Assembly: GCF_004363295.1 (NCBI RefSeq)
Contig: NZ_SNYQ01000005.1
Coordinates: 62,001 to 126,000 of the forward strand
Reading direction: 5' to 3'
Origin: Mesocricetibacter intestinalis
Lineage (GTDB): Bacteria > Pseudomonadota > Gammaproteobacteria > Enterobacterales > Pasteurellaceae
DNA length: 64,000 nucleotides
Every line of letters starts with the position of its first letter. The first letter of the stretch is position 1. A program made the translations under genes and the position numbers. Shown here in pieces: positions 14,077-40,737 of the stretch. A model generated the notes under the pieces. It had not been told where the DNA came from, did no database searches, and saw nothing but the letters and a program-made list of their open reading frames with translations.

Positions 14077-14867
14077 GCTTTATTCTCCCTTGGATTTTGC
14101 TTATAGGATTTGCGCAGCGGGCGGATAACCGGCGAGCCGTTGCAATCATATAAAATTTCAATATCTACTTTGTACAGTTTGCTGATCAGTTCCGGCTGCA
14201 ATACTTGTCGGGCCGGTCCCAATCCCTGTATTTTGCCTTCTCCGAGCAGGATAATGCAATCGGAAAATTGAGCGGCAAGGCTAAGATCATGCAATACCAT
14301 TAAAGTGATCAGATTATTGCGGCGAGTATAATCGCAAACATGTTCCAGCAGGTTGATCTGATGGTGCATATCCAATGCGCTGACCGGTTCGTCCAACATC
14401 AGCATTTGCGGGTTGCGCAGCAACACCTGAGCAAACATTACCATCTGGCGCTGACCGCCGCTCAGACGCATTACGTCCTTATGGGCCAAATGGGCGATAT
14501 TCAGTTTTTCCATCATCTCGGCGGCTTCGCGCAGCAGTTCATCCCCCACATGCATATGTAATGCGTCCAGCCGACCGAGTAAAATTACTTCAAGTGCGGT
14601 TAGAGAGGCCTCGACTTGGGTATCCTGCGGCATATAGCCGATACGTTTACGCCAGCTCAATAACGAACGCCGGCTCAGTAATTCCGTACCGTAATAAATA
14701 TGCCCCTGATAGGCTACCTCGCCAAAAATCGTCTTAAGCATAGAGGATTTGCCGGCTCCGTTAGGACCCAGAATAGAATAAATTTTTCCCTGTTCCAGAT
14801 TAAGATTAATGCGATCCGCTACTTTTTGAGTACCGCGTTGAATGGTTAAATTTTCTAAGCGTAACAT
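14073..14867 (-). CDS. ABC importer ATPase (iron/siderophore/cobalamin type)
   Basis: 264 residues with Walker A (GPNGAGKSS), Q-loop (MPQDTQ), ABC signature (LSGGQRQMVMFAQVLL), Walker B (MLMLDEPVSALD) and H-loop (VLHDLSLA). It is the cytoplasmic ATPase partner of the FecCD-type permease just upstream (four-base gap) and belongs to the FepC/FecE/BtuD group. The last bases overlap the cupredoxin start. Confidence 0.92.
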   Translation of the reverse strand: MLRLENLTIQRGTQKVADRINLNLEQGKIYSILGPNGAGKSSMLKTIFGEVAYQGHIYYGTELLSRRSLLSWRKRIGYMPQDTQVEASLTALEVILLGRLDALHMHVGDELLREAAEMMEKLNIAHLAHKDVMRLSGGQRQMVMFAQVLLRNPQMLMLDEPVSALDMHHQINLLEHVCDYTRRNNLITLMVLHDLSLAAQFSDCIILLGEGKIQGLGPARQVLQPELISKLYKVDIEILYDCNGSPVIRPLRKSYKQNPRENKA

Positions 14868-14871
14868 TTGG

Positions 14872-15912
14872 TTATCCCCGTTTACTCAGCACAATCCAGA
14901 AGAAGAAAGGGACACCGACAAAGGAGGTAATAATACCTACCGGGAAAAGTGCGCCCGGAATAATAATCTTTGAAAGTACCGAAGCGATGGATAAAAATGC
15001 CGCTCCCACCAGCATTGCACCGGGCAGGAAAAAACGCTGATCTTCGCCCAGCAGCATTCGCGCCACATGGGGCGCTACCAGCCCGATAAAGCCGATAATA
15101 CCAACAAAACTGATTGCCGTTGCGGTCATTACGGCGACGATAATCAGGGTTTTCAAACGCAGCAGTTGCAGGTTGATTCCCAGGCTGAGAGCACGTTCTT
15201 CGCCCAGGCGAAGTGCGGTCAGTTTCCATACGTCTTTAGATAATAAAAAGACGCTGATACTGGTAACCACCGCAGCAATAATTAAATGCTCCCAGGTGGA
15301 TTTGGTTAAGCTACCGAATAGCCAGAACAGAATCTGCTGTGAAATTTCCGGAGCGGCGATAAACTGAATCAGGGAAAGCATGGACTGGAACAGGAACAGT
15401 AGAGCGATTCCCACCAATACCAGCATAGCGGAACTGAAACGCCGCATGGAAGCGAATACAAATAAAATGGCGGAGGCCAAAATGGTCATGACAAAGGCGC
15501 CGGCGGGTACTGCAAAGGCGGAAGGTAAACCGAAGCCGCCGAAGGCAATTACTGCGGAAGCGCCTAAGCCTGCCGCCGCTGCCAGACCGAGGGTATAGGG
15601 GCTGGCCATGGGGTTATTCAGCAGGGTTTGAATTTCCGCCCCGCCCACACCCAGTGCAGCCCCGACCACTAACGCCATTAGCGCCATGGGTAAACGCAGA
15701 TCATAGACGATAACGCTAGTGGTGGTTTCCACATCGTCTAAACGCAACAAAGCGCGGACCACTTCTTCCAGCGGCAACATGGAAGGGCCGGTAACTATAT
15801 CAAATACCAGCCCGATAATACTCAGGGCTAGAAAACCTATAACCACGAGCCAGCGTTTACGCTCTAGCGCACGCTGGCTGCGGATAATATGTTCGACTTT
15901 TGCGGAAGCCAT
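14872..15912 (-). CDS. ABC importer permease, FecCD family
   Basis: 346 residues, about ten membrane segments. LRLPMALMALVVGAALGVGGAEIQTLLNNPMASPYTLGLAAAAGLGA is the FecCD/BtuC signature, and GFIGLVAPHVARMLLGEDQRFFLPGAMLVGA is the coupling region that contacts the ATPase. As a homodimer it forms the inner-membrane channel. Its start overlaps the stop of the binding-protein gene by one base. Two uptake signals lie in or near this operon (14592, 15211). Confidence 0.92.
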   Translation of the reverse strand: MASAKVEHIIRSQRALERKRWLVVIGFLALSIIGLVFDIVTGPSMLPLEEVVRALLRLDDVETTTSVIVYDLRLPMALMALVVGAALGVGGAEIQTLLNNPMASPYTLGLAAAAGLGASAVIAFGGFGLPSAFAVPAGAFVMTILASAILFVFASMRRFSSAMLVLVGIALLFLFQSMLSLIQFIAAPEISQQILFWLFGSLTKSTWEHLIIAAVVTSISVFLLSKDVWKLTALRLGEERALSLGINLQLLRLKTLIIVAVMTATAISFVGIIGFIGLVAPHVARMLLGEDQRFFLPGAMLVGAAFLSIASVLSKIIIPGALFPVGIITSFVGVPFFFWIVLSKRG

Positions 15913-30083: not shown

Positions 30084-30329
30084 GTCGAAAAAATTTTATA
30101 AATCGCACATAACACAAAAAAACTTATCAATTTTTGACCGCACTTTTAGCTAACTGCACCTAACGCGCCGATATGGAAGAAAAATATTTTTAAATACAAC
30201 CGGCCTATATTAAAAAATTTGAACTCGCTCAAATACTTAATAAAAAAGTTAGGGTAGAATTTGTTTGTAGGCCTAGAACATTGTTCAGATTGATGAATAA
30301 ATTTATGACAACCGGTTAATGGATAACTA
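30084..30329 (+). promoter_or_regulatory. region upstream of the cas operon
   Basis: No gene seen. It contains one uptake signal in reverse orientation (30137-30145), the last one before an 8.6-kb stretch without any. A -10-like TAGAAT lies at 30255-30260, without a convincing -35. The cas operon promoter should be here. Confidence 0.45.
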
Positions 30330-32864
30330 ATGAAAACAAAAACTTTTATCGCACATATTCGTAAAACGGATAAAGCGGAACAATCCGTTGCCATCCATCT
30401 TACCGAAACCGCCGCGATTGCCCGCGAATTGGCGACTAAGCTGGATTTGCCCGAAGCGGGCGAGTTGCTTGGCTTGATGCACGACTTTGGCAAATATTCC
30501 AAGAAATTTCAAAAAAGAATACATAAGAATAATGGTTTGGAATTTTATGATTTTGATGAAGATGCTGGCACTGATGATCACGACACCAATAAACCAGACC
30601 ACTCGACAGCAGGGGCTCAATGGATTTACCGCCGTCTGAAAAAGTTTGGCGCGCAAAACGGCATCGGCGAATTGGTCGGGCAGATACTGGGCTTGTGCAT
30701 TGCCTCGCATCACGGCGTTGGGTTGATTGACTGCTTAAACTCCGAAGGCGAAGCGGTTTGGTTGAAGCGTTTTCAAAGAGATGATGTGCTCACGCATTTG
30801 GCCGAATGTGAGCAAAATGCCGATGAAACAATCAAGCGGCAGGCGGATGGTTTGGCAGATAAGGCTTTGATTGACCAAGTGATGAATGTGCTCAAACCCA
30901 TTGTGCGGCCAATGGTTGATTCTTTTCAGAAGGAGCGTCCGGCAGGAAAGATTAAAACTTCTCATAAAATTGAAGAATTCTATCTGGGCTGTCTAACCCG
31001 CTTTTTATTCAGCTGCCTGATTGATGCCGATCGCATCAACAGTGCGGATTTTGAACGCGAAGCGCAAAAGGATTTACGCCGCTTGACTCAAAAGCCGAAT
31101 TGGCAGGAAGTGATAGAGAAGCTCGAAATCCATTTAGCCGATTTTGAGATTCGTTACCCGATTGACCAAATCCGCCGTGATATATCCGATGCCTGTCTGC
31201 AACGAGCCGCCGATCCTCAGGGAATTTACACCCTTAGCGTGCCGACCGGCGGCGGCAAAACGCTGGCGAGCCTGCGCTATGCCTTGCATCATGCACAAAA
31301 GCACAATCTTGACCGCATTATCTACATCATTCCTTATACTTCCATTATTGACCAAAATGCCGAATCGGTACGCAAGATTTATTGTTTAAACCCAAAAGAT
31401 AATGGCGATTCGTGCCGCGTATGTTCGGAATGTCAAAAATGGGTGTTGGAACACCATTCCAACCTTGAGCCCGAAAAACAAAACTGGCAAGACAAGTTAC
31501 TTTCCGAAAACTGGGATAAGCCGATTGTGTTTACCACCATGGTGCAGTTTCTCGATGCCTGGTTCGGCGGTGGCACGCGTGGTGCGCGTCATATCCACCC
31601 GATGACCAAGAGCGTGCTGATTTTTGACGAAATCCAAACTCTGCCGGTGAAATGCGTGCATTTGTTCTGTAACACATTGAATTGGTTAGCTAAATTCGGT
31701 AAATCCAGTGCCATATTATGCACTGCTACCCAGCCGTTGCTCAATAAGCTGCCCAAATCGGAATTCGGCGAGTTAAAGTTAGCGGAAAATGCCGAGATTA
31801 TGGGAGACGAGCAAGAAAAAAGAAAGCTGTTCGACGATTTATCGCGCGTGGAAATCCTCTATCAACCCAAAGCCGGCGGTTGGTCGGTAGAGGAAGCGGG
31901 CGGGTTTCTATTGGAACAGTATCAAGCTTTCTCAAGCTGTCTATTTATTGTAAATACAAAAGAATGGGCTAAAGATTTGTATCAATACTGCCAAAAGCAA
32001 AACGTATCATCTGAAGCCTTGTTTCATCTCAGCACCAACCAATGTTCGGCACACCGTAAAATCATTTTTGATGAAATCAAAGGCCGTCTGAAAAACAAAC
32101 AGCCCGTGATTTGCATCAGCACCCAGTTAATCGAAGCCGGTGTGGATATTTCCATGGCTTGTGTGATTCGGGCTTTGGGGGGATTGGATTCTATTGCCCA
32201 AGCGGCGGGGCGTTGTAATCGTCATGGTGAAAAAGAAGGTAAAGGGCAGGTTTATGTACTGAATTTACAAGAGACTAATTTAGCACGGATATTGCCCGAT
32301 ATTTATCAAGGTCAAGTCCATGCTGAACGCATATTGCGCGAATTTGCCGGACAGGATATTTTACAACCTACCGCCATGCAGCGATATTTCCAATATTATT
32401 TTTACAATCGCAGCGGTGAGATGAGCTATGCGGTTAAAGACAGCGCTTCAGGTAGTCTACTGGATTGGCTTTCCGACAATTCTTCAAATGTTTATGCGGC
32501 GAAAAACAATCGAAGAAGTAAGCCGTTTCCGCTCTTGATGCAGTCATTCAAAAGCGCGGGACAGGCTTTCCAAGCCATTGATGCGCCGACCCGTGCCCTG
32601 ATTGTGCCATACGGCGAAGGCAGGGAGTTGATTGCTTCGCTTTGCGGAGAATGGGAACCAAAAAAAATGTACTGCAAATTGGCAAAGGCACAACGGTATA
32701 GTGTGAACGTTTTTCCAAATGTGTGGAAACAACTGGAAGCACAGCAAGCCCTGCAAGAAGTGCAAGCAGGTTCGGGTATTTACTATTTGAAAGATGGGCA
32801 TTACACCGATGAATACGGCTTGTCGGTTGATAAAGTCGGTATTATGCCTACATATAATTTTTAG
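30330..32864 (+). CDS. cas3: CRISPR-associated nuclease/helicase Cas3 (type I-C)
   Basis: 844 residues. N-terminal HD nuclease domain with HLTETAAIARELA, LMHDFGKYSKKFQ (HD pair) and ASHHG. Then a superfamily 2 helicase: Walker A VPTGGGKTLASLRYAL (about residues 303-318), IFDEIQ as motif II, TATQP as motif III, ISTQLIEAGVDISM and QAAGRCNRHGE as motifs V and VI. It is recruited by Cascade to unwind and degrade target DNA. It carries two Neisseria uptake sequence cores (30631 and 32081) and starts the cas operon. Confidence 0.97.
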   Translation: MKTKTFIAHIRKTDKAEQSVAIHLTETAAIARELATKLDLPEAGELLGLMHDFGKYSKKFQKRIHKNNGLEFYDFDEDAGTDDHDTNKPDHSTAGAQWIYRRLKKFGAQNGIGELVGQILGLCIASHHGVGLIDCLNSEGEAVWLKRFQRDDVLTHLAECEQNADETIKRQADGLADKALIDQVMNVLKPIVRPMVDSFQKERPAGKIKTSHKIEEFYLGCLTRFLFSCLIDADRINSADFEREAQKDLRRLTQKPNWQEVIEKLEIHLADFEIRYPIDQIRRDISDACLQRAADPQGIYTLSVPTGGGKTLASLRYALHHAQKHNLDRIIYIIPYTSIIDQNAESVRKIYCLNPKDNGDSCRVCSECQKWVLEHHSNLEPEKQNWQDKLLSENWDKPIVFTTMVQFLDAWFGGGTRGARHIHPMTKSVLIFDEIQTLPVKCVHLFCNTLNWLAKFGKSSAILCTATQPLLNKLPKSEFGELKLAENAEIMGDEQEKRKLFDDLSRVEILYQPKAGGWSVEEAGGFLLEQYQAFSSCLFIVNTKEWAKDLYQYCQKQNVSSEALFHLSTNQCSAHRKIIFDEIKGRLKNKQPVICISTQLIEAGVDISMACVIRALGGLDSIAQAAGRCNRHGEKEGKGQVYVLNLQETNLARILPDIYQGQVHAERILREFAGQDILQPTAMQRYFQYYFYNRSGEMSYAVKDSASGSLLDWLSDNSSNVYAAKNNRRSKPFPLLMQSFKSAGQAFQAIDAPTRALIVPYGEGRELIASLCGEWEPKKMYCKLAKAQRYSVNVFPNVWKQLEAQQALQEVQAGSGIYYLKDGHYTDEYGLSVDKVGIMPTYNF
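30631..30640 (+). repeat. Neisseria DNA uptake sequence core (in cas3)
   Basis: Exact GCCGTCTGAA, the 10-mer core of the Neisseria DUS, inside a Pasteurellaceae genome. First of six in the cas3-cas4 segment. Confidence 0.9.
32081..32092 (+). repeat. Neisseria DNA uptake sequence, AG-DUS form (in cas3)
   Basis: Exact 12-mer AGGCCGTCTGAA. Confidence 0.93.
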
Positions 32865-32874
32865 AAGGAGCAAT

Positions 32875-33612
32875 ATGAACAGCACAATTACTTTCCGCGT
32901 TTGGGGACGGCAGGCGTTGTTTACTGACCCGGTTACTAAAATAGGCGGAGAAAAATTCAGCTATCAAGTGCCGACCTATGAGGCGATAAAAGGTATTTTG
33001 AAAAGCATTTACTGGAAACCCACACTGATTTGGCATATCGATAAAATTCGGGTAATGAAACCGATTCGTACCCAGAGTAAATCCACCAAACCTTTGGATT
33101 GGAACGGTGGCAATACGCTGGCGATTTACACCTTTCTGCAAGATGTAGAATACCAGGTACAGGCGCATTTTACCTGGAACGAATATTGGGATGAGCTGAA
33201 AAACGACCGTAATTTAGGCAAACATATGGCTATTGCGGAAAGAATGCTGGAACGTGGCGGGCGGCAGGATATTTTCTTGGGTACGCGCGATTGTCAAGGC
33301 TATGTGGAGCCGTGCGAGTTCGGTAGCCCAAGTCGAGACGGCAAAGCCGGCTTTTACGATGACATCGATAATCTCGATTTCGGGCTAATGTTTCACAGCT
33401 TTGGCTATCCCGAAGAAACGGGTAAACACGAATTAATTAGCCGTTTTTGGCAGGCCAATATGCAGTATGGCGTGATTGAATTCCCAAGCGTAAACGATAA
33501 TACAGGCCGTCTGAAAACCCGCTTTATTCGCAACATGCAGCCTGAAAAACCATTCAAACGCGGCGAAAACGTGAAGCCTGTGGAAGATGAAGCCAAGGAG
33601 TTGGGATTATGA
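32875..33612 (+). CDS. cas5c: Cas5c (Cas5d), crRNA-processing subunit of type I-C Cascade
   Basis: 245 residues from MNSTITFRVWGRQALFTDPVTK, with AGAAGGAG just upstream. A longer frame overlapping cas3 is unlikely. The Cas5 N-terminal RRM (VPTYEAIKGILKSIYWKP) is followed by GKHMAIAERMLERGG. Its adjacent Lys-His corresponds to the catalytic pair of type I-C Cas5, which replaces Cas6 and cuts pre-crRNA in the repeat hairpin. No cas6 is present, as expected for this subtype. Overlaps cas8c by four bases (ATGA). Confidence 0.95.
   Translation: MNSTITFRVWGRQALFTDPVTKIGGEKFSYQVPTYEAIKGILKSIYWKPTLIWHIDKIRVMKPIRTQSKSTKPLDWNGGNTLAIYTFLQDVEYQVQAHFTWNEYWDELKNDRNLGKHMAIAERMLERGGRQDIFLGTRDCQGYVEPCEFGSPSRDGKAGFYDDIDNLDFGLMFHSFGYPEETGKHELISRFWQANMQYGVIEFPSVNDNTGRLKTRFIRNMQPEKPFKRGENVKPVEDEAKELGL
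33504..33515 (+). repeat. Neisseria DNA uptake sequence, AG-DUS form (in cas5c)
   Basis: Exact 12-mer AGGCCGTCTGAA. Confidence 0.93.
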
Positions 33613-35669
33613 GTTGGATGCAGAAATTGTATCGGACGTATAACGAAGTTGAGAAAAGCGCCGATTTGTCAGATTTAGATAAAGCAAACCTTGCGCCGTT
33701 ATGGCATAGCCCACAGACTGCACATATCAACATTACATTAGATGGTGATGGAAATTTTATTTCTGCAAGAGTATTAAGCGATAAACCTATTGTGATGTTG
33801 CCTGTAACTGAAAATTCTGAAGGGCGTACAAGTGGTCTAGCTCCACACGCTTTGGCAGATAGCTTGCAGTATATTGCTAAGGATTTGAGACTTACCTATA
33901 CCGCAGAAATAACGAAAGAAGTAGAAGGGAAAAACGGAAAAAGGAAAACAGTTAAAGAGAAAAAAGAAGATTTTATTTTTAATCTCTATTCCGAACAGCT
34001 AGATAAATGGTGTACCTATACGGATAATTCTAAAATTTTGGCTATACAAAAATATGTGCATAAAGGCAATGTTTTAGCAGATTTGATTAAAGCCAAGGTT
34101 GTTCCAACAAACGAGCAAGGAGATTTGTTAGATAACTGGATTGAAAAAGAAAATCAAGGGCATCCCAAGCCTGAACTATTCAACGTACTAGCTAAAGAGA
34201 AAGGTAAATTTGAAATACGTAAAGCGCTTGTTATTTGGTCAGTTGAGCTTCCCAATGATTTAACACCTGAAACATGGAAGGATAAAGCCATTCAACAAAG
34301 TTGGGGAGAATATTATCAAAGCACATTGGATAGCCAATTTTGTATGATGATAGGCGAAGAACAGAAGATACGTGAAAGCCACCCGGCCAAACTAACCTAT
34401 ACAGGTGATAAAGCCAAGTTGATTTCTGCAAACGATAAAGATGGCTATACCTTTAGAGGTCGTTTTGAAACAGCTAATCAGGCAAGCAGTATTTCTGCGG
34501 AAGTTTCCCATAAATCACATGCAGCATTGCGCTGGCTGATTGGCCGTCAAGGCATCCGCAACGGCGATCAAGTTACCGTTGCATGGGCGATCAGCGGCAA
34601 AGAAATCCCTTCGCCGATGCAAGATACGTTCGAGGAAATCGACTGGGACAATCTGGATACTAGCGCGGTTGAAGAAGCCGAAGCCAATATGCCGTCTGAA
34701 AACGAAACCGGTGTCGACTGGTCAGTTAATATCGGGCAGCAAGCCGCCGCTATTATTAAAAAGAAACTGCACGGCTACAAAAAAGAGCTGAAAGAGCATG
34801 AGCAGATTTCACTGTTGATGCTGGATTCCGCTACGCCGGGTCGCATGGCATTGAGCTATTACCAAGAGTTTCTGCCCGTTGATTATTTTGCTAATCTGGA
34901 TGCGTGGATAGACCATTTTTCTTGGTATCAACGCCACAGCATAGAAAAGCCGAAGGGTAAAAAAACAGATAAGCAAACCCTTTGGGCATTCGTGCCGCCG
35001 TCGCCGGCTGCCATCGGCTATGCCGTTTACGGACAGGCATTGAGCGATACCCTGAAAAAACAGCTCTATGCCCGCCTGCTGCCAGTGATTGCCGGCGGAA
35101 AAAATGTACTGATTCCTTATGATTTGGTGCAACAGAGTTTTCAGACGGCCTGCAATCCCAACGGCAGCGAACATTGGGAATGGGAACGCAACATCGGCGT
35201 CGCCTGTGCCTTATACAAAGGCTGGCGCGCCCGTCATCAAAATCCATCACAACGGAGAACTTACTCTATGAGTTTAGATATGGAAAACCGCTCACGCGAT
35301 TATTTGTACGGTAGACTGCTGGCTATCGCCGAAAACATTGAATCCTACGCACTTTATTTAGCGGAGGAAAAACGTGCCACTACTGCCGAGCGTTATATGC
35401 AGCGCTTTGCTGAACACCCATTCAGCACTTGGCGCAATATTGAACTGGCGTTGAAACCCTATCAAGACCGCTTGCGCAGTCGTGGCAAAGATACGGGCAC
35501 GCAAGCCATCGGCGAAATTATGGAGCTGTTCCAAAGCAATGATTTTATCTGCGACGACAAATTAAGCGGCGAGTTTCTTCTTGGTTATCATTGCCAAAAA
35601 ATGGAAATCAACCGCCAAATTGTCGAGCGCAAAGCTGCCAAGCAAAAGAAAACCGAAACCGCTAAATAA
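33609..35669 (+). CDS. cas8c: Cas8c (Csd1), large subunit of type I-C Cascade
   Basis: 686 residues, of the Csd1 family. SHKSHAALRWLIGRQGIRNGDQVTVAW and the TPGRMALSYYQEF segment are typical. The large subunit recognises the PAM and contacts Cas3. The gene is compositionally mosaic: about 33650-34510 is AT-rich (for example 16 G/C in the 60 bases of 33961-34020), and from about 34520 on it is GC-rich (34 in 34561-34620). The Neisseria uptake sequences at 34689 and 35140 are both in the GC-rich part. The last 133 residues can also be made separately as Cas11c. Confidence 0.95.
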   Translation: MSWMQKLYRTYNEVEKSADLSDLDKANLAPLWHSPQTAHINITLDGDGNFISARVLSDKPIVMLPVTENSEGRTSGLAPHALADSLQYIAKDLRLTYTAEITKEVEGKNGKRKTVKEKKEDFIFNLYSEQLDKWCTYTDNSKILAIQKYVHKGNVLADLIKAKVVPTNEQGDLLDNWIEKENQGHPKPELFNVLAKEKGKFEIRKALVIWSVELPNDLTPETWKDKAIQQSWGEYYQSTLDSQFCMMIGEEQKIRESHPAKLTYTGDKAKLISANDKDGYTFRGRFETANQASSISAEVSHKSHAALRWLIGRQGIRNGDQVTVAWAISGKEIPSPMQDTFEEIDWDNLDTSAVEEAEANMPSENETGVDWSVNIGQQAAAIIKKKLHGYKKELKEHEQISLLMLDSATPGRMALSYYQEFLPVDYFANLDAWIDHFSWYQRHSIEKPKGKKTDKQTLWAFVPPSPAAIGYAVYGQALSDTLKKQLYARLLPVIAGGKNVLIPYDLVQQSFQTACNPNGSEHWEWERNIGVACALYKGWRARHQNPSQRRTYSMSLDMENRSRDYLYGRLLAIAENIESYALYLAEEKRATTAERYMQRFAEHPFSTWRNIELALKPYQDRLRSRGKDTGTQAIGEIMELFQSNDFICDDKLSGEFLLGYHCQKMEINRQIVERKAAKQKKTETAK
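34689..34700 (+). repeat. Neisseria DNA uptake sequence, AT-DUS form (in cas8c)
   Basis: Exact 12-mer ATGCCGTCTGAA, the form used by N. meningitidis and N. gonorrhoeae. Confidence 0.93.
35140..35151 (-). repeat. Neisseria DNA uptake sequence, AG-DUS form (in cas8c)
   Basis: TTCAGACGGCCT on the plus strand, the exact complement of AGGCCGTCTGAA. Confidence 0.93.
35268..35669 (+). CDS. cas11c: Cas11c small subunit from an internal start within cas8c
   Basis: In frame with cas8c, an ATG at 35268 (MSLDMENRSRDYLYGRLLA) would give 133 residues ending at the cas8c stop. It has its own ribosome site, GGAG at 35254-35257, ten bases upstream. Internal translation of a helical small subunit (Cas11c) from the 3' part of cas8c is established for type I-C systems. 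The predicted product is all-helical and of the expected size. No separate cas11 gene exists in the operon. Confidence 0.75.
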   Translation: MSLDMENRSRDYLYGRLLAIAENIESYALYLAEEKRATTAERYMQRFAEHPFSTWRNIELALKPYQDRLRSRGKDTGTQAIGEIMELFQSNDFICDDKLSGEFLLGYHCQKMEINRQIVERKAAKQKKTETAK

Positions 35670-35694
35670 CCCAAAACATTGAAAGGAAAACAAC

Positions 35695-36543
35695 ATGAGC
35701 TTAACCAAAAAAATCGACTTTGCCCTGATTCTTAAAGTTACCAACGCCAATCCCAACGGTGACCCCTTAAACGGCAACCGCCCGCGCGCCGACTTCCAAG
35801 GCTTCGGCGAAATGACAGATGTATGCCTGAAACGCAAAATCCGTGATCGCCTGCAAGACAGCGGCGAAAGTATTTTCGTACAGTCCGACGAAAAGAAAAC
35901 CGACGGCATGACCAGCCTTGCCAATCGCGCCAAAGACAAAGAAGTTGGCTTGGGGGCAGACGCATTTAATGCCAAAAAAGCCAATAAAGACCAAACCACC
36001 AAACAAGCTTGTGAAAAATGGCTGGACGTGCGCAGTTTCGGTCAAGTATTCGCCTTCGGCAAAAGCGATGAAGGCGCAGGCGTATCGATTGCTGTACGCG
36101 GCCCTGTAACTATCCAATCGGCATTCAGCGTCGAGCCGGTCAATATCACCAGCACGCAAATCACTAAAAGCGTGAGCGGTGAAGACCCTAAGGAAGGTAA
36201 AAATAAAAGTTCCGACACCATGGGCATGAAACACCGCGTGGATAGCGGCATTTACGTCGCCTTCGGCGCCATGTCGCCGCAGCTTGCCGAACGCACTGGC
36301 TTTTCTGACACCGATGCCGACAAAATCAAAACCGTGTTAACCAAACTGTTTGAAGGCGATGCCTCATCCGCCCGCCCCGAAGGCAGCATGCAAGTGCTGA
36401 AACTGATTTGGTGGGAACACAACTGCAAAGCAGGGCAATATTCATCCGCCAAAGTGCATGGCAGCCTGAAAGTCAATGCAGACGGCAGTTATGAATTAAA
36501 TAATTTCGACGGCTTGGTTCCTGCCGAGATTGACGGCTTCTAA
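35695..36543 (+). CDS. cas7c: Cas7c (Csd2), backbone subunit of type I-C Cascade
   Basis: 282 residues. The Csd2/Cas7 opening KIDFALILKVTNANPNGDP and NRPRADFQGFGEMTDVCLKRKIRDRL are diagnostic. VSIAVRGPVTIQSAFSVEPVNITSTQITKSV is the conserved thumb region, and MGMKHRVDSGIYVAFGAMSPQLA follows. Several copies coat the crRNA spacer. AAAGGAAAAC precedes the ATG. The gene is immediately followed by cas4 with no gap. Confidence 0.96.
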   Translation: MSLTKKIDFALILKVTNANPNGDPLNGNRPRADFQGFGEMTDVCLKRKIRDRLQDSGESIFVQSDEKKTDGMTSLANRAKDKEVGLGADAFNAKKANKDQTTKQACEKWLDVRSFGQVFAFGKSDEGAGVSIAVRGPVTIQSAFSVEPVNITSTQITKSVSGEDPKEGKNKSSDTMGMKHRVDSGIYVAFGAMSPQLAERTGFSDTDADKIKTVLTKLFEGDASSARPEGSMQVLKLIWWEHNCKAGQYSSAKVHGSLKVNADGSYELNNFDGLVPAEIDGF

Positions 36544-37212
36544 ATGGCGGGAGATTTACAAAATTCCGCAGCAAACCCACTGCTTGCAGGCGCGGGGGAA
36601 CGGGATTTGCCCACTGTTTCCCTCTCCGCATTGCAACACTACGCCTTCTGCCCGCGCCAATGCGCGTTGATTCACAACGAGCAGGCGTGGGTGGAGAACT
36701 ACCTCACCGCGCAGGGGCGTTCGCTACACGAGCTGGTGGATTCGGGCGAGCCGGAAACACGCAAAGGTGTGCGCTTCGAGCGCAGCGTGCATGTGTCGGC
36801 GCAGCGGTTGGGCATCAGCGGCATTGTCGATATGGTTGAACATGATTTGGTTTCAGGCAGCCTGAAACCGGTGGAATATAAACGCGGCAAGCCAAAGCCC
36901 GAGCCGTTCGACGAAATCCAGCTTTGCGCGCAGGCGCTGTGTTTGGAAGAAATGACCGGGCAAACCATCGCTGAGGGCGCGCTGTGGTATATGCAAACTC
37001 GCCACCGCGTGCTGGTGGTGTTTTCAGACGGCCTTAGAGCGCAAACGCTGGCCGTTATCGCCCAAGTGCGCGAACTCTTGGCAAGCGGGCAAACCCCGCC
37101 GCCGGTGTACGGCAAACGCTGCAAAGCCTGCTCGCTGGTGGAAATTTGCCAGCCGAAGTTGTTGGAGAAGGATAGGTCGGCGAGGTATGTGGAGGGGTTG
37201 TTTGGGGAGTGA
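36544..37212 (+). CDS. cas4: Cas4, PAM-selecting exonuclease of adaptation
   Basis: 222 residues. Iron-sulphur cysteines are present: CPRQC (Cys36/Cys40) near the N-terminus and CKAC-x5-C near the C-terminus. RecB-type nuclease motifs GIVDMVEH, VEYKRGK and QLCAQALCLEE are intact. Cas4 trims prespacers and fixes the PAM for Cas1-Cas2. Its ATG follows the cas7 stop directly. The gene is GC-rich (35 G/C of 60 at 36901-36960) and has a reverse AG-DUS at 37023. Also present is TTCAGGCAGCCTGAA (about 36857-36871), a palindrome containing AGGCAGCCTGAA, a Kingella-type DUS dialect. In the usual order cas1 would follow; here another gene intervenes. Confidence 0.96.
   Translation: MAGDLQNSAANPLLAGAGERDLPTVSLSALQHYAFCPRQCALIHNEQAWVENYLTAQGRSLHELVDSGEPETRKGVRFERSVHVSAQRLGISGIVDMVEHDLVSGSLKPVEYKRGKPKPEPFDEIQLCAQALCLEEMTGQTIAEGALWYMQTRHRVLVVFSDGLRAQTLAVIAQVRELLASGQTPPPVYGKRCKACSLVEICQPKLLEKDRSARYVEGLFGE
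37023..37034 (-). repeat. Neisseria DNA uptake sequence, AG-DUS form (in cas4)
   Basis: TTCAGACGGCCT, the exact complement of AGGCCGTCTGAA. Last of the six, 175 bases before the DUF1643 gene. Confidence 0.93.
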
Positions 37213-37775
37213 GAGTTTTAAATCAATATATGGCAGTGAAATTTATGGAATACAATATAGACGTATACGAAATTGATGAAACCAATAAATATCGTTTTGC
37301 TCTTGGTAGTTTATCAGAGAAAACTTTATTTGTTTTTGGTGTAAATCCAAGTACAGCAGATGACAAAAAACCTGATAACACAATTAAAAAGGTGATGGGG
37401 TTTGCAGAAAAGAATGGATATAAAAGTTTTATGATGCTTAATTTATATCCACAAAGAGCTACTAACCCCAATAAATTATCAAATGAAATAGATAGAATGA
37501 TGATGAATAAAAATCTCGAAGTTATTTTGCACCTTCTATCTTTAAAAAAAGAAGCTGATATTTTATTGGCTTGGGGTGGATTGATATTTTCCCGTTCATA
37601 TTTGCCTTTATGTTTGAAAGAAATTTACCAGTCCATTAAAGATTATTCGTTAAATTTTTATAGGATTGGTGATTTTTTAAAATCTGGACAGCCACGACAT
37701 CCTTTGTATGCAGGATATAAACAAGAGTTTCAAGTAGTAGATATGGATAAATATTTGCAGGAATTTAACATCTGA
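37209..37775 (+). CDS. DUF1643 protein embedded in the cas operon
   Basis: Up to 188 residues; a GTG start at 37209 overlaps the cas4 stop, and an ATG at 37230 is an alternative. All DUF1643 landmarks are present: GVNPSTADDKKPDNTIKKVMGFA, MMLNLYPQRATNP and GQPRHPLYAGY. Function of the family is unknown. The gene is AT-rich (16 G/C of 60 at 37501-37560), in sharp contrast to cas4. Its stop overlaps the cas1 ATG by one base (TGATG), so it is cotranscribed and coupled with cas1. It has no place in a standard type I-C operon. It could be a passenger, a defence accessory or an adaptation factor. Confidence 0.85.
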   Translation: MRVLNQYMAVKFMEYNIDVYEIDETNKYRFALGSLSEKTLFVFGVNPSTADDKKPDNTIKKVMGFAEKNGYKSFMMLNLYPQRATNPNKLSNEIDRMMMNKNLEVILHLLSLKKEADILLAWGGLIFSRSYLPLCLKEIYQSIKDYSLNFYRIGDFLKSGQPRHPLYAGYKQEFQVVDMDKYLQEFNI

Positions 37776-38788
37776 TGCGCAAACTGCAAAATACGCTGTA
37801 TATCACCACGCAGGGCAGTTATCTGCATAAGGAGCGGGAAACGCTGGTGGTGGAGCAGGATAAGAAGAAAGTGGCGCAGTTGCCGGTGCATTCCATCGGG
37901 CATATTTTTTGTTTCGGCAATGTGCTGGTGTCGCCGTTTTTGATGGGGTTTTGTGGCGAAAACAATGTGAATCTGGCATTTTTTAGCGAAAACGGACATT
38001 TTTTAGGGCGGTTGCAGGGGCGGCAAAGCGGTAATGTTTTATTACGACGGGCACAGTATAAACAATCTGAACAAAATCCCATGCCTATTGCGCGCAATAT
38101 TATTGCTGCCAAAATTCAAGCGTCTAAACGAGTTCTACAGCGGCAAATCCGCAATTATGGCGATAATCAGGCTATTCAATCGGCAATCAAAGCATTAAAT
38201 AGTTCATTAATTCAGCTTAAGCGGGCGGATAATTTGGAACGGGTTCGAGGTATTGAAGGTGATGCGGCGGCACGTTATTTTGCTGTGTTTGGGCTGTTAA
38301 TAAAAGAGAGTAGCGGTTTTCGGTTTGACGGCCGTAACCGCCGCCCGCCAAGAGATGGTGTTAACGCATTGTTATCGTTTTTATATAGCATTTTGGGCAA
38401 AGACATCAGTGGCGCACTGCAAGGCGTGGGTTTGGACCCGCAAGTGGGGTTTCTACACGCCGATCGCCCAGGGCGCGATAGTCTTGCTCAGGATATTCTG
38501 GAAGAATTTCGTGCCTGGTGGGCGGATAGAATGGTGTTATCCCTAATAAACCGAGGGCAAATTAAACCTCAGGATTTTACTTTTGAAGCGGGCGGCGCCG
38601 TAAATATGAAAGAGGATGTACGCAAATTACTGTTCCGAACCTTACAAGAGAAAAAGCAGGAAAAAGTCCGTCATCCGTTTTTAGATGAAGAAGTAGAAAT
38701 AGGCTTATTGCCCTATATTCAAGCAATGTTGCTAGCACGGCATTTGCGAGGGGACTTAGCGGAATATCCGCCATTTTTGATGCGCTAA
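37775..38788 (+). CDS. cas1: Cas1 integrase (type I-C)
   Basis: 337 residues. N-terminal beta domain (LYITTQGSYLHKERETLVV), then the helical catalytic domain with RGIEGDAAARYF (catalytic Glu), DPQVGFLHADRPGRDSLAQDILEEFR (catalytic His and Asp) and the metal site nearby. With Cas2 it integrates new spacers next to the leader. No Neisseria uptake sequence was found in this gene. Translation is coupled to the DUF1643 gene before it. A Pasteurellaceae uptake signal (38794) lies just after the stop. Confidence 0.96.
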   Translation: MRKLQNTLYITTQGSYLHKERETLVVEQDKKKVAQLPVHSIGHIFCFGNVLVSPFLMGFCGENNVNLAFFSENGHFLGRLQGRQSGNVLLRRAQYKQSEQNPMPIARNIIAAKIQASKRVLQRQIRNYGDNQAIQSAIKALNSSLIQLKRADNLERVRGIEGDAAARYFAVFGLLIKESSGFRFDGRNRRPPRDGVNALLSFLYSILGKDISGALQGVGLDPQVGFLHADRPGRDSLAQDILEEFRAWWADRMVLSLINRGQIKPQDFTFEAGGAVNMKEDVRKLLFRTLQEKKQEKVRHPFLDEEVEIGLLPYIQAMLLARHLRGDLAEYPPFLMR

Positions 38789-38836
38789 GGCTAAAGTGCG
38801 GTCTAAATTTTTATATTTTTTAAGGAGTAAGCCCCG

Positions 38837-39130
38837 ATGCTAATGTTGATTACCTATGACGTATCCTCTACAAGCGAAGGTGCCGAACGTCGCCTGCGAC
38901 AAATCGCTAAACATTGTTTGGATTATGGTATACGTGCACAATATTCTGTTTTTGAATGTGATGTTACGCCTGATCAATGGGTGGTATTAAAAGATAAATT
39001 GTTAAAGACCTATGATCCCGATTGCGACAGCTTACGTTTCTATCATTTGGGTAGCAAATGGCGTAGTAAAGTGGAACATCACGGAGCAAAACCCGCAGTG
39101 GATATATTTAAAGATATATTGATTTTGTAA
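38837..39130 (+). CDS. cas2: Cas2 (type I-C)
   Basis: 97 residues, ferredoxin-like fold. It begins MLMLITYDVSSTSEGAERRLRQIAKHCLDYGIRAQYSVFEC, with the conserved Asp in the first strand. It bridges two Cas1 dimers in the adaptation complex. AAGGAG lies 9 bases before the ATG at 38837. A 48-base gap from cas1 carries the uptake signal AAGTGCGGT. Confidence 0.96.
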   Translation: MLMLITYDVSSTSEGAERRLRQIAKHCLDYGIRAQYSVFECDVTPDQWVVLKDKLLKTYDPDCDSLRFYHLGSKWRSKVEHHGAKPAVDIFKDILIL

Positions 39131-39320: not shown

Positions 39321-40737
39321 GCAGCCGCCTTCGGGCGGCTGTGTGTTGAAACAGCTGCGTAAGTAATAGCACGACACAATCCATTTGCAGCCGCCTTCGG
39401 GCGGCTGTGTGTTGAAACAGCCTCGAAATGAGCGGAAAGCTGATGGTGGAGGCAGCCGCCTTCGGGCGGCTGTGTGTTGAAACCTCCGAATATTAAAACC
39501 CAACTGGCGATGATGTTGCAGCCGCCTTCGGGCGGCTGTGTGTTGAAACGTCATTAGTCATATCTTTGCAACTGGATTTATTGACGCAGCCGCCTTCGGG
39601 CGGCTGTGTGTTGAAACACATCTGAGCGGGTCAGTGCACGGTAGCTATTTAGCAGCCGCCTTCGGGCGGCTGTGTGTTGAAACTGATAAAAGAATTAAAT
39701 CTGAAATTGATGGTTTGCAGCCGCCTTCGGGCGGCTGTGTGTTGAAACGGATAACCGCGGCTTTGAGGCGGATATGTTAGAGTGCAGCCGCCTTCGGGCG
39801 GCTGTGTGTTGAAACATCTTCATCTTCAAAGACTTCTTCTTGAATTTCTCGCAGCCGCCTTCGGGCGGCTGTGTGTTGAAACACTCACAAAATAAGCACA
39901 CAGCGCATTACGACTGGCAGCTGCCTTCGTGCAGCTATGTGTTGAAACACTATTTCGGCTCATAGATAATGCGCATCGGAAAGCAGCTGCCTTCGCGCAG
40001 CTGTGTGTTGAAACGCAAAGAACAGAAAAAAATGCTCCATTTTTGCAATAGCAGCTGCCTTCGCGCAGCTGTGTGTTGAAACAAGCCCTCCTACCGGAAA
40101 TTTGTCAGGGGGAAGGCAGCTGCCTTCGCGCAGCTGTGTGTTGAAACCCGGACGATGAGACTTACATTGAGGCAAAAAAAGCAGCTGCCTTCGCGCAGCT
40201 GTGTGTTGAAACTGGTGGAGTTGATTTGATTGTAGGTGTCAACGATGCAGCTGCCTTCGCGCAGCTGTGTGTTGAAACCATGTATCCCTGGTAAACTGGC
40301 CTACGCCAATCGGCAGCCGCCTTCGGGCGGCTGTGTGTTGAAACTCGTTCTATTCGTTCATACATCTTACGGGCAAGGCAGCTGCCTTCGGGCGGCTGTG
40401 TGTTGAAACTGCCGCTATTTCCGCATCGATTAAATCTTGCGTGCAGCTGCCTTCGCGTAGCTGTGTGTTGAAACACCCCGTGCATCGAGCAATAAGGCGA
40501 CCAACTCACGCAGTTGCCTTCGCGCAGATGTGTGTTGAAACTGTAGTGGGTAAGCCAACCATTGCTCAAACCATGCAGCTGCCTTTGCGCAGCTGTGTGT
40601 TGAAACCTGGTCGCAATTAAGCAAAGAGATTCATGCTGCGCAGCTGCCTTCGGGCGGCTGTGTGTTGAAACTGGTTGTCGGTTTAGGCGTGCGTTATATG
40701 CTTGGGCAGCCGCCTTCGCGCAGCTGTGTATTGAAAC
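39321..40737 (+). CRISPR. type I-C CRISPR array, 22 repeats and 21 spacers
   Basis: 32-base repeats start at 39321, 39387, 39452, 39518, 39586, 39652, 39717, 39784, 39851, 39917, 39983, 40051, 40116, 40181, 40247, 40313, 40378, 40443, 40510, 40575, 40640 and 40706. Spacers are 33-36 bases. Repeats 1-9 are identical: arms CAGCCGCC / GGCGGCTG around a TTCG loop, then TGTGTTGAAAC. Repeats 11-15 form a second family with arms CAGCTGC / GCAGCTG. Repeat 16 is the first type. Repeats 17 and 21 join a second-family left arm to a first-family right arm, and 22 the reverse. Repeats 10, 18, 19 and 20 carry single changes. Degeneration at the far end supports leader-proximal growth. No spacer visibly matches another part of this window. 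Confidence 0.98.

Follow-up and report, generated by a model that had tools for sequence, protein, structure and literature searches.

Neisserial DNA uptake sequences in a type I-C CRISPR-Cas operon of Mesocricetibacter intestinalis and a variable cargo slot between its cas4 and cas1 genes

We analysed a 64,000-nucleotide stretch of contig NZ_SNYQ01000005.1 of Mesocricetibacter intestinalis (Pasteurellaceae), hereafter called the window, which holds a complete type I-C CRISPR-Cas set. The cas3-to-cas4 part of this operon carries cores of the Neisseria DNA uptake sequence (DUS), and related operons of Neisseriaceae and Pasteurellaceae carry DUS, the uptake signal sequence (USS) of Pasteurellaceae, and cargo genes between cas4 and cas1. 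We consider it likely that the operon comes from a pool of I-C operons common to both families, in which cas3 to cas4 aged in Neisseriaceae, pieces were transformed in both directions and the cas4-cas1 gap served as a cargo slot.

DUS in the window operon and the host genome

An exact scan of the window found the DUS core GCCGTCTGAA six times, at 30631, 32083, 33506 and 34691 on the plus strand and at 35140 and 37023 on the minus strand. Only 0.06 were expected, and none of 100 shuffles reached six. No exact core was present outside cas3-cas4 in the whole 64 kb. Both results agree with a preliminary description of this DNA, which had placed six cores in cas3-cas4 and none elsewhere; the positions 32081, 33504 and 34689 given there are starts of 12-mers, the cores beginning 2 bp later. 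The letters of AT-DUS and AG-DUS follow an excerpt of PMC7371117, and the names of the remaining dialects an excerpt of PMC3630211. The operon holds four AG, one AT, one king and one sim exact dialect 12-mers, while the core at 30631 is preceded by CC and is therefore not a full dialect 12-mer. The letters of the muc, sim, king and eik dialects are those that we presume them to have. A king-like 11-mer in cas7 that recurs in many rows was excluded from the DUS counts. The sites are listed below with the state of related loci (L numbers; L019 is a Neisseria metagenome-assembled genome, MAG, and L020 is Actinobacillus sp. GY-402).

30631 to 30640, plus strand: DUS core with CC prefix in cas3; L019, L020 and L134 have the core at the same site
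32081 to 32092, plus strand: AG-DUS in cas3; L014, L019, L020, L134 and L046 have the core at the same site
33504 to 33515, plus strand: AG-DUS in cas5; both families use this site, the dialect being AG, muc, sim or king
34689 to 34700, plus strand: AT-DUS in cas8; in L119 the codon estimated to correspond holds a core with AT prefix
35140 to 35151, minus strand: AG-DUS in cas8; relatives have AG, sim, king or eik at the same site
36852 to 36866, no single strand: overlapping AG-simDUS (minus) and AG-kingDUS (plus) in cas4; DUS of other dialects lie nearby in both families
37023 to 37034, minus strand: AG-DUS in cas4; many relatives have mucDUS at the same site

The operon consists of seven cas genes (cas3-cas5c-cas8c-cas7c-cas4-cas1-cas2), and its open reading frames (ORFs) are intact. 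Cas5c, Cas8c, Cas7c and Cas1c scored above cut-off with subtype models, and Cas3, Cas4 and Cas2 with general, not subtype, models. The cargo gene shares 4 bases with cas4 and 1 base with cas1.

30330 to 32864, plus strand: cas3, 844 amino acids (TIGR01587 and TIGR01596 above cut-off)
32875 to 33612, plus strand: cas5c, 245 amino acids, an inner ATG being taken as start (TIGR01876)
33609 to 35669, plus strand: cas8c of the long lineage, 686 amino acids (TIGR01863)
35695 to 36543, plus strand: cas7c (TIGR02589)
36544 to 37212, plus strand: cas4, left arm of the cargo slot (TIGR00372)
37209 to 37775, plus strand: cargo gene in the cas4-cas1 slot, 188 amino acids, DUF1643 (PF07799, E 8e-29)
37775 to 38788, plus strand: cas1c, right arm of the slot, without DUS; nearest relative in Rodentibacter (TIGR03640)
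38837 to 39130, plus strand: cas2 (TIGR01573)

When codons were shuffled synonymously within the seven cas genes, the mean was 0.23 cores and none of 300 shuffles reached six. The 2.21-Mb host genome contains 13 cores, 6 of them inside the operon, compared with 4 occurrences of a reversed control pattern and with 3298, 2465 and 4058 cores in three Neisseria genomes. Since the host lacks a strong genome-wide DUS excess, DUS in Mesocricetibacter are passengers and not its own uptake signal. The genome-wide scan proposed in the preliminary description thus found cores that are not evenly spread over the host.

Contaminated or chimeric assemblies, whether of this contig or of the relatives, are a highly improbable source of this pattern. 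Drafts and MAGs are included in the set, and a Moraxella MAG (L028) forms a close pair with a Neisseria MAG. However, the contig that carries the window operon is 146 kb long, USS flank the operon closely on either side, the genome is scored as 100% complete with 0.02 contamination, and the operons of the single-contig genomes L020, L117 and L119 also carry DUS. As for L028 itself, its cas3 and cas8 are close to those of the Neisseria MAG, which could mean that the contig was mis-binned or that the pool extends to a third family.

DUS at shared sites in both families

Cas8c matches were found in 50 of 140 Pasteurellaceae and 30 of 83 Neisseriaceae genomes; score and length served to separate a long lineage from a typical one. 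Both effector lineages are accompanied by similar cas4, cas1 and cas2 genes. DUS sites were compared over 32 long-type loci (20 Pasteurellaceae, 11 Neisseriaceae and 1 Moraxella MAG), and strict DUS were counted per gene in 29 (20 Pasteurellaceae and 9 Neisseriaceae). Loci without a window-like Cas8c (29 of 114) and those of the typical lineage stand outside these long-type counts and were used, as far as they contained them, for cas4, cas1 and the slot, defined as a cas4-cas1 gap of more than 250 bp. Cas4 or cas1 was lacking in 11 of the 114 loci, and 93 were left after removal of 10 duplicate rows.

DUS of several dialects recur at the same aligned places in the two families. Depending on the locus, the cas5 site carries an AG, muc, sim or king 12-mer, with the amino acids changing to match, and the second cas8 site an AG, sim, king or eik 12-mer; four outgroup loci have no DUS at the aligned sites. 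Strict DUS numbered 13 in cas3, 6 in cas5, 12 in cas8 and 21 in cas4 of Pasteurellaceae, and 15, 11, 15 and 15 in the same genes of Neisseriaceae, with none in cas7, cas1 or cas2 of either family. The DUS-densest gene was cas4, at 1.67 strict DUS per kb in Pasteurellaceae and 2.46 in Neisseriaceae. The preliminary description had set a DUS-bearing cas3-cas4 part apart from cas1-cas2. This division stands for the genes themselves (no strict DUS in 29 cas1 and 29 cas2) but not for the cas1-cas2 spacer, nor for the cas1 stretch in the wider set, where 4 DUS were found in 24 Neisseriaceae slot loci and none in 52 Pasteurellaceae loci.

In the 19 other Pasteurellaceae loci, 32 DUS were observed against 2.7 in synonymous shuffles, and 28 against 0.9, and the reversed motif occurred 0 times. 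The random and synonymous shuffles rule out that the DUS arose by chance or from codon make-up. That the motifs stem from chance or from conserved protein sequence is hardly credible: several sites do lie in conserved stretches (FSDGL in cas4, FQTAC in cas8), and the recurrent king-like 11-mer in cas7 may be such a case, but six cores in the window against 0.23, the excess in the 19 other loci with no reversed motif, and a site that codes different amino acids in different dialects all speak against it. Pasteurellaceae cas4 genes with DUS had a median identity to Neisseriaceae of 91.7% (n = 24), compared with 76.5% for DUS-free ones (n = 28; p 2e-9).

In the 20 Pasteurellaceae hosts with a long operon, the operon (176 kb in total) held 39 of the 248 AG/AT-type cores and 34 of the 106 muc cores. 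The operon is a hot place for DUS in Pasteurellaceae hosts, not the sole one.

Other DUS-rich islands were seen in Pasteurellaceae (L228, L229, L230 and L231), and AAA_14/DUF4143 ATPases occur in four of five DUS-rich islands (10 proteins scanned overall). A gene for such an ATPase with an internal DUS core lies on G000 contig 5 at 354-1657 (L048, outside the window). Downstream of it an AT-DUS is paired with an inverted one, much as in a neisserial terminator, and a relative in G045 also has an inverted AT-DUS pair. In G038, a Pasteurellaceae genome without a Cas8c match, a ~60-kb block of contig 13 (~33-92 kb; L232 and L233) holds many DUS and USS and may be an import or contamination.

Mixed trees and mosaic identity

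The window Cas3 is sister to the Cas3 of a Neisseria MAG with a support of 99, and the window Cas4 is 93% identical to that of the same MAG. The phylogenetic check of cas3-cas4 called for in the preliminary description thus returned close Neisseriaceae relatives. Together with the uneven spread of DUS in the host, these relatives make it very probable that the window cas3-cas4 segment spent time in Neisseriaceae.

In the Cas3, Cas5 and Cas8 trees the family label changed 8, 8 and 9 times, compared with 9.0-9.1 in shuffles, and was not clustered. It was partly clustered for Cas7 (7 changes against 8.6 in shuffles), Cas4 (12 against 16.4) and Cas1 (10 against 13.7). Starred branches force at least six changes of family in the Cas3 tree and at least seven in the Cas8 tree, and the approximately unbiased (AU) test rejected a single Pasteurellaceae clade for both proteins (p 3e-60 and 2e-63, respectively). 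In a comparison with 31 genomes, the HemA of this host shares 60-72% identity with other Pasteurellaceae and 41-44% with Neisseriaceae, whereas identities between operon DNA of the two families go as high as 94% (1.4 kb) and 91.5% (5 kb). Vertical inheritance of the operon from a common ancestor is ruled out by this difference.

Along the window operon, the nearest rows in 240-bp segments were now Neisseria, now Pasteurellaceae (one cas3 segment had no comparable row). The Neisseria MAG L019 was nearest in parts of cas3, cas5, cas8, cas7 and cas4, and Actinobacillus sp. GY-402 in much of cas3, cas5, cas8 and cas7. Elsewhere the nearest rows were L119 for part of cas8, L161 for part of cas4 and a Rodentibacter (L023) for most of cas1 and for cas2. 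The preliminary description had read the interference module as a transfer from Neisseriaceae. The stay in that family is upheld by the close Cas3 and Cas4 relatives, but four points speak against a simple one-way move into this host: the Actinobacillus operon being nearest in many segments, the mixed trees, the USS in Neisseria copies and the ordinary USS gap of the window, the last two of which are described below.

One alternative, which we regard as rather unlikely without dismissing it, is a single old import from Neisseriaceae with later spread among Pasteurellaceae only, the window copy coming from a relative such as Actinobacillus and its DUS being decaying passengers. The nearness of the Actinobacillus operon, which has the core at four of the six window sites and cas4 DNA 90.8% identical to that of the window, is in its favour, and it may hold for the last step into this host. 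However, the Pasteurellaceae operons with DUS differ in dialect, the starred branches force repeated changes of family, and the DNA of some Pasteurellaceae operons is as much as 94% identical to that of a Neisseria.

Movement between the families by a conjugative or phage-like element, instead of by transformation, seems to us more doubtful still. It would be in keeping with the DUS-rich islands of other Pasteurellaceae and with the neisserial integrative and conjugative elements (ICEs) with foreign dialects that an excerpt of PMC7371117 describes. The nearest relative of the window operon nevertheless shifts every few hundred bases, which fits piecewise homologous recombination, and none of the five neighbour proteins scanned belongs to a mobile-element family, no search for integrases or att sites having been made.

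USS in the window and in Neisseriaceae operons

The host USS AAGTGCGGT occurs 22 times in the window and 658 times in the genome, with none from 30146 to 38793. The gap ends just beyond cas1.

38794 to 38802, plus strand: Hin-USS, starting 6 bp past the end of cas1

This gap of 8.6 kb, for which ~2.6 sites were expected (Poisson P ~0.08), is the longest between the 22 sites. The absence of host USS across the operon, offered in the preliminary description as a sign of transfer, is therefore real but weak as evidence, as it would arise by chance in about 8% of cases.

Eleven Neisseriaceae loci hold nine coding USS, compared with 0.57 by shuffle, and 13 of the 303 USS in these 11 genomes lie inside the operon. 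In most of the 11 the motif is near the level of its reversed control, G151 standing out with 98 against 16. At one shared cas1 codon, USS were present in 12 Pasteurellaceae and 7 Neisseriaceae loci. We also scanned the 130 bp before cas1, allowing at most one mismatch. Among slot loci, USS were found there in 17 of 40 Pasteurellaceae and 9 of 24 Neisseriaceae, DUS cores in 11 of 40 and 14 of 24, and both signals in 4 of 40 and 8 of 24; in L140 and L143 they stand side by side. Among tight loci the counts were 8 of 12 and 0 of 2 for USS and 0 of 12 and 1 of 2 for DUS cores, and other loci had neither (0 of 15 each). Since some Neisseria copies carry Pasteurellaceae USS in or before cas1, traffic between the families probably ran both ways.

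Cargo between cas4 and cas1

Forty of the 52 Pasteurellaceae loci and 24 of the 26 Neisseriaceae loci had the slot, as did 1 of 15 others. Cargo ORFs of at least 80 amino acids were found in 58 of 65 slot loci; the 80 ORFs formed 55 clusters, 14 of them found in both families, and mostly cluster representatives were scanned. Matches of the scanned members were an AbiP2-type reverse transcriptase, OLD, an SMODS cyclase with SLATT, a TIR effector and SLATT_5. Further matches were DarTG, Shedu, AlwI and BsuBI/PstI restriction-modification, GmrSD, PD-T4-7 and RhuM/PDC-S05, and the remaining cargo matched HNH, PIN, NYN-LOTUS, Fic, Nmad2 or further domains, or had no match. Clusters with a scanned defence, restriction-modification or toxin-antitoxin match account for 19 of 57 Neisseriaceae and Pasteurellaceae cargo loci, and many others match none. 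The slot has conserved flanks and variable cargo, as a defence hotspot would.

We compared loci of the two families whose arms were both at least 90% identical: 69 of 70 such pairs had unrelated cargo, 1 had partly similar cargo and in none was it the same. Thus, cargo turns over independently of the arms. In Pasteurellaceae, DUS in cas4 goes with the slot (22 of 40 slot loci against 2 of 12; Fisher p 0.024, a test that ignores kinship).

The DUF1643 protein in the window slot may have a defence role. It had no match in PADLOC and no credible relative among solved structures (best E 0.39), and in viral contigs two stretches fitted a pattern and none was a relative. Its single-sequence structure model had a mean pLDDT (predicted local distance difference test score) of 52 and was not used for a fold search.

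Two further slot contents were noted. A reverse-strand ORF of 226 amino acids recurs in the slots of L139, L158 and L159, from both families, with a DUF1889 match below cut-off, and is possibly an insertion element. The only outside locus with a gap above 250 bp, L031 from a Desulfobulbaceae MAG, holds a BRO-N gene (14637-15476).

A proposed history of the operon

We propose that the window operon is a member of an I-C pool common to Neisseriaceae and Pasteurellaceae. Its cas3-to-cas4 part would have been loaded with DUS in Neisseriaceae through uptake-biased transformation, and a descendant operon would have reached this Pasteurellaceae directly or through another member of the family. Cells of both families would acquire DNA of the pool, most likely through natural transformation, and build it in piece by piece by recombination in cas genes of high identity, with traffic going both ways. 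We infer transformation as the route, and the direction of single transfers, from the patterns of signals and identity described above. In both families cas4 is the DUS-densest gene, and cas1 or the stretch before it carries USS in part of the loci. The cargo between them, many of whose genes resemble anti-phage ones, is replaced faster than the arms, presumably swapped by recombination in cas4 and cas1.

More tentatively, and with odds we put somewhat below even, the cas4-cas1 region could act as an exchange port. With DUS in cas4 and USS in cas1, and in some loci both signals before cas1, tagged DNA would enter both families and matching arms would swap cargo, spreading a shared and rotating anti-phage repertoire.

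Several points weigh against the proposed history. No transfer event was observed, and no Neisseria sequence turned up that is similar enough over the whole window operon to have been its direct donor. Five of the eight DNA matches to the window of at least 82% over at least 200 bases are from Pasteurellaceae, and the long matches among the eight are at 82-84%. The Neisseria rows L019 and L027 are MAGs, in which binning errors are possible, and the trees are quick searches without a mixture model that omit rows below 60% of the length. DUS are not confined to cas3-cas4, as strict ones also lie in the cas1-cas2 spacer, in 7 of the 9 Neisseriaceae loci and 2 of the 20 Pasteurellaceae loci. They also occur in 15 of 20 control Pasteurellaceae without I-C (0-74 cores per genome), so that import is not special to CRISPR and other neisserial imports exist.

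Further points bear on the slot. Just 12 of the 40 Pasteurellaceae slot loci and 8 of the 24 from Neisseriaceae have an exact USS in cas1, and strict DUS are lacking in cas4 of 18 of the 40 Pasteurellaceae slot loci. In the window, USS are absent from cas1 and from the DNA before it, the cargo gene abutting cas1. Finally, the arms of the same-cargo between-family pairs compared are only 71-89% alike, so exchange through matching arms was not caught in the act.

CRISPR array and neighbouring genes

The operon is followed by a polarised array.

39321 to 40737, no strand assigned: CRISPR array, 22 repeats of 32 nt and 21 spacers

The nine repeats nearest cas2 are identical and those at the far end are mostly variants, as expected with spacer addition at the cas2 end. 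In the far half many repeats are changed on both sides of the stem, and by eye the pairing seems mostly kept. Four of the 21 spacers were searched in phages: two gave weak Pasteurella-phage matches only (E 0.4), one gave no match, and the fourth had weak matches in 54 phage records, the ones listed all being from Klebsiella phages.

Beside the operon lie genes for a solute-binding protein, a histidine kinase and a response regulator, and past the array two AIR-synthase-like genes, the first of which we take to be selD. For five neighbouring genes no good match was found in the flanks (5-10 kb beside each locus) of the other loci.

Relation to known systems

Uptake signals are usually viewed as confining transformation to one family. 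Related operons that bear the uptake signals of both families keep a trace of where they have been, and the order of hosts may be readable from the way dialects change at fixed sites. If the slot works as proposed, unrelated mucosal bacteria would share anti-phage genes through natural transformation, and cargo genes without a name, DUF1643 included, would be candidates for new defence systems.

Kroll et al. (1998) reportedly found gene transfers from Haemophilus to Neisseria that carried uptake signals (autB/lav). Like autB/lav, the window operon belongs to genes that cross between these two groups. Here, however, a defence operon bears the signals of both families at recurrent sites, and DUS inside Pasteurellaceae mark the opposite direction. 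An excerpt of PMC5635059 likewise describes autB as a Haemophilus-to-Neisseria transfer with the source uptake sequence near its borders. In an excerpt of PMC7371117, the density of a foreign DUS dialect points to the earlier host of neisserial islands, and a similar method is proposed for Pasteurellaceae; those islands are ICEs within Neisseriaceae, whereas the present host lies outside that family.

A functional type I-C system is described for N. lactamica in an excerpt of PMC10865793, and it is likened to the window operon by subtype, not by sequence. The main text of that article has no mention of cas4, horizontal, Pasteurellaceae or Haemophilus. In the open-licence literature, as far as titles and the openings of abstracts go, neither a cas4-cas1 defence slot nor DUS in Pasteurellaceae cas genes was found. 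To judge from the title of PMC10250203, the core defence hotspots of P. aeruginosa hold variable defence genes at fixed places. The cas4-cas1 slot differs from these in that its flanks are CRISPR adaptation genes, that it is found in two families and that uptake signals lie in those flanks.

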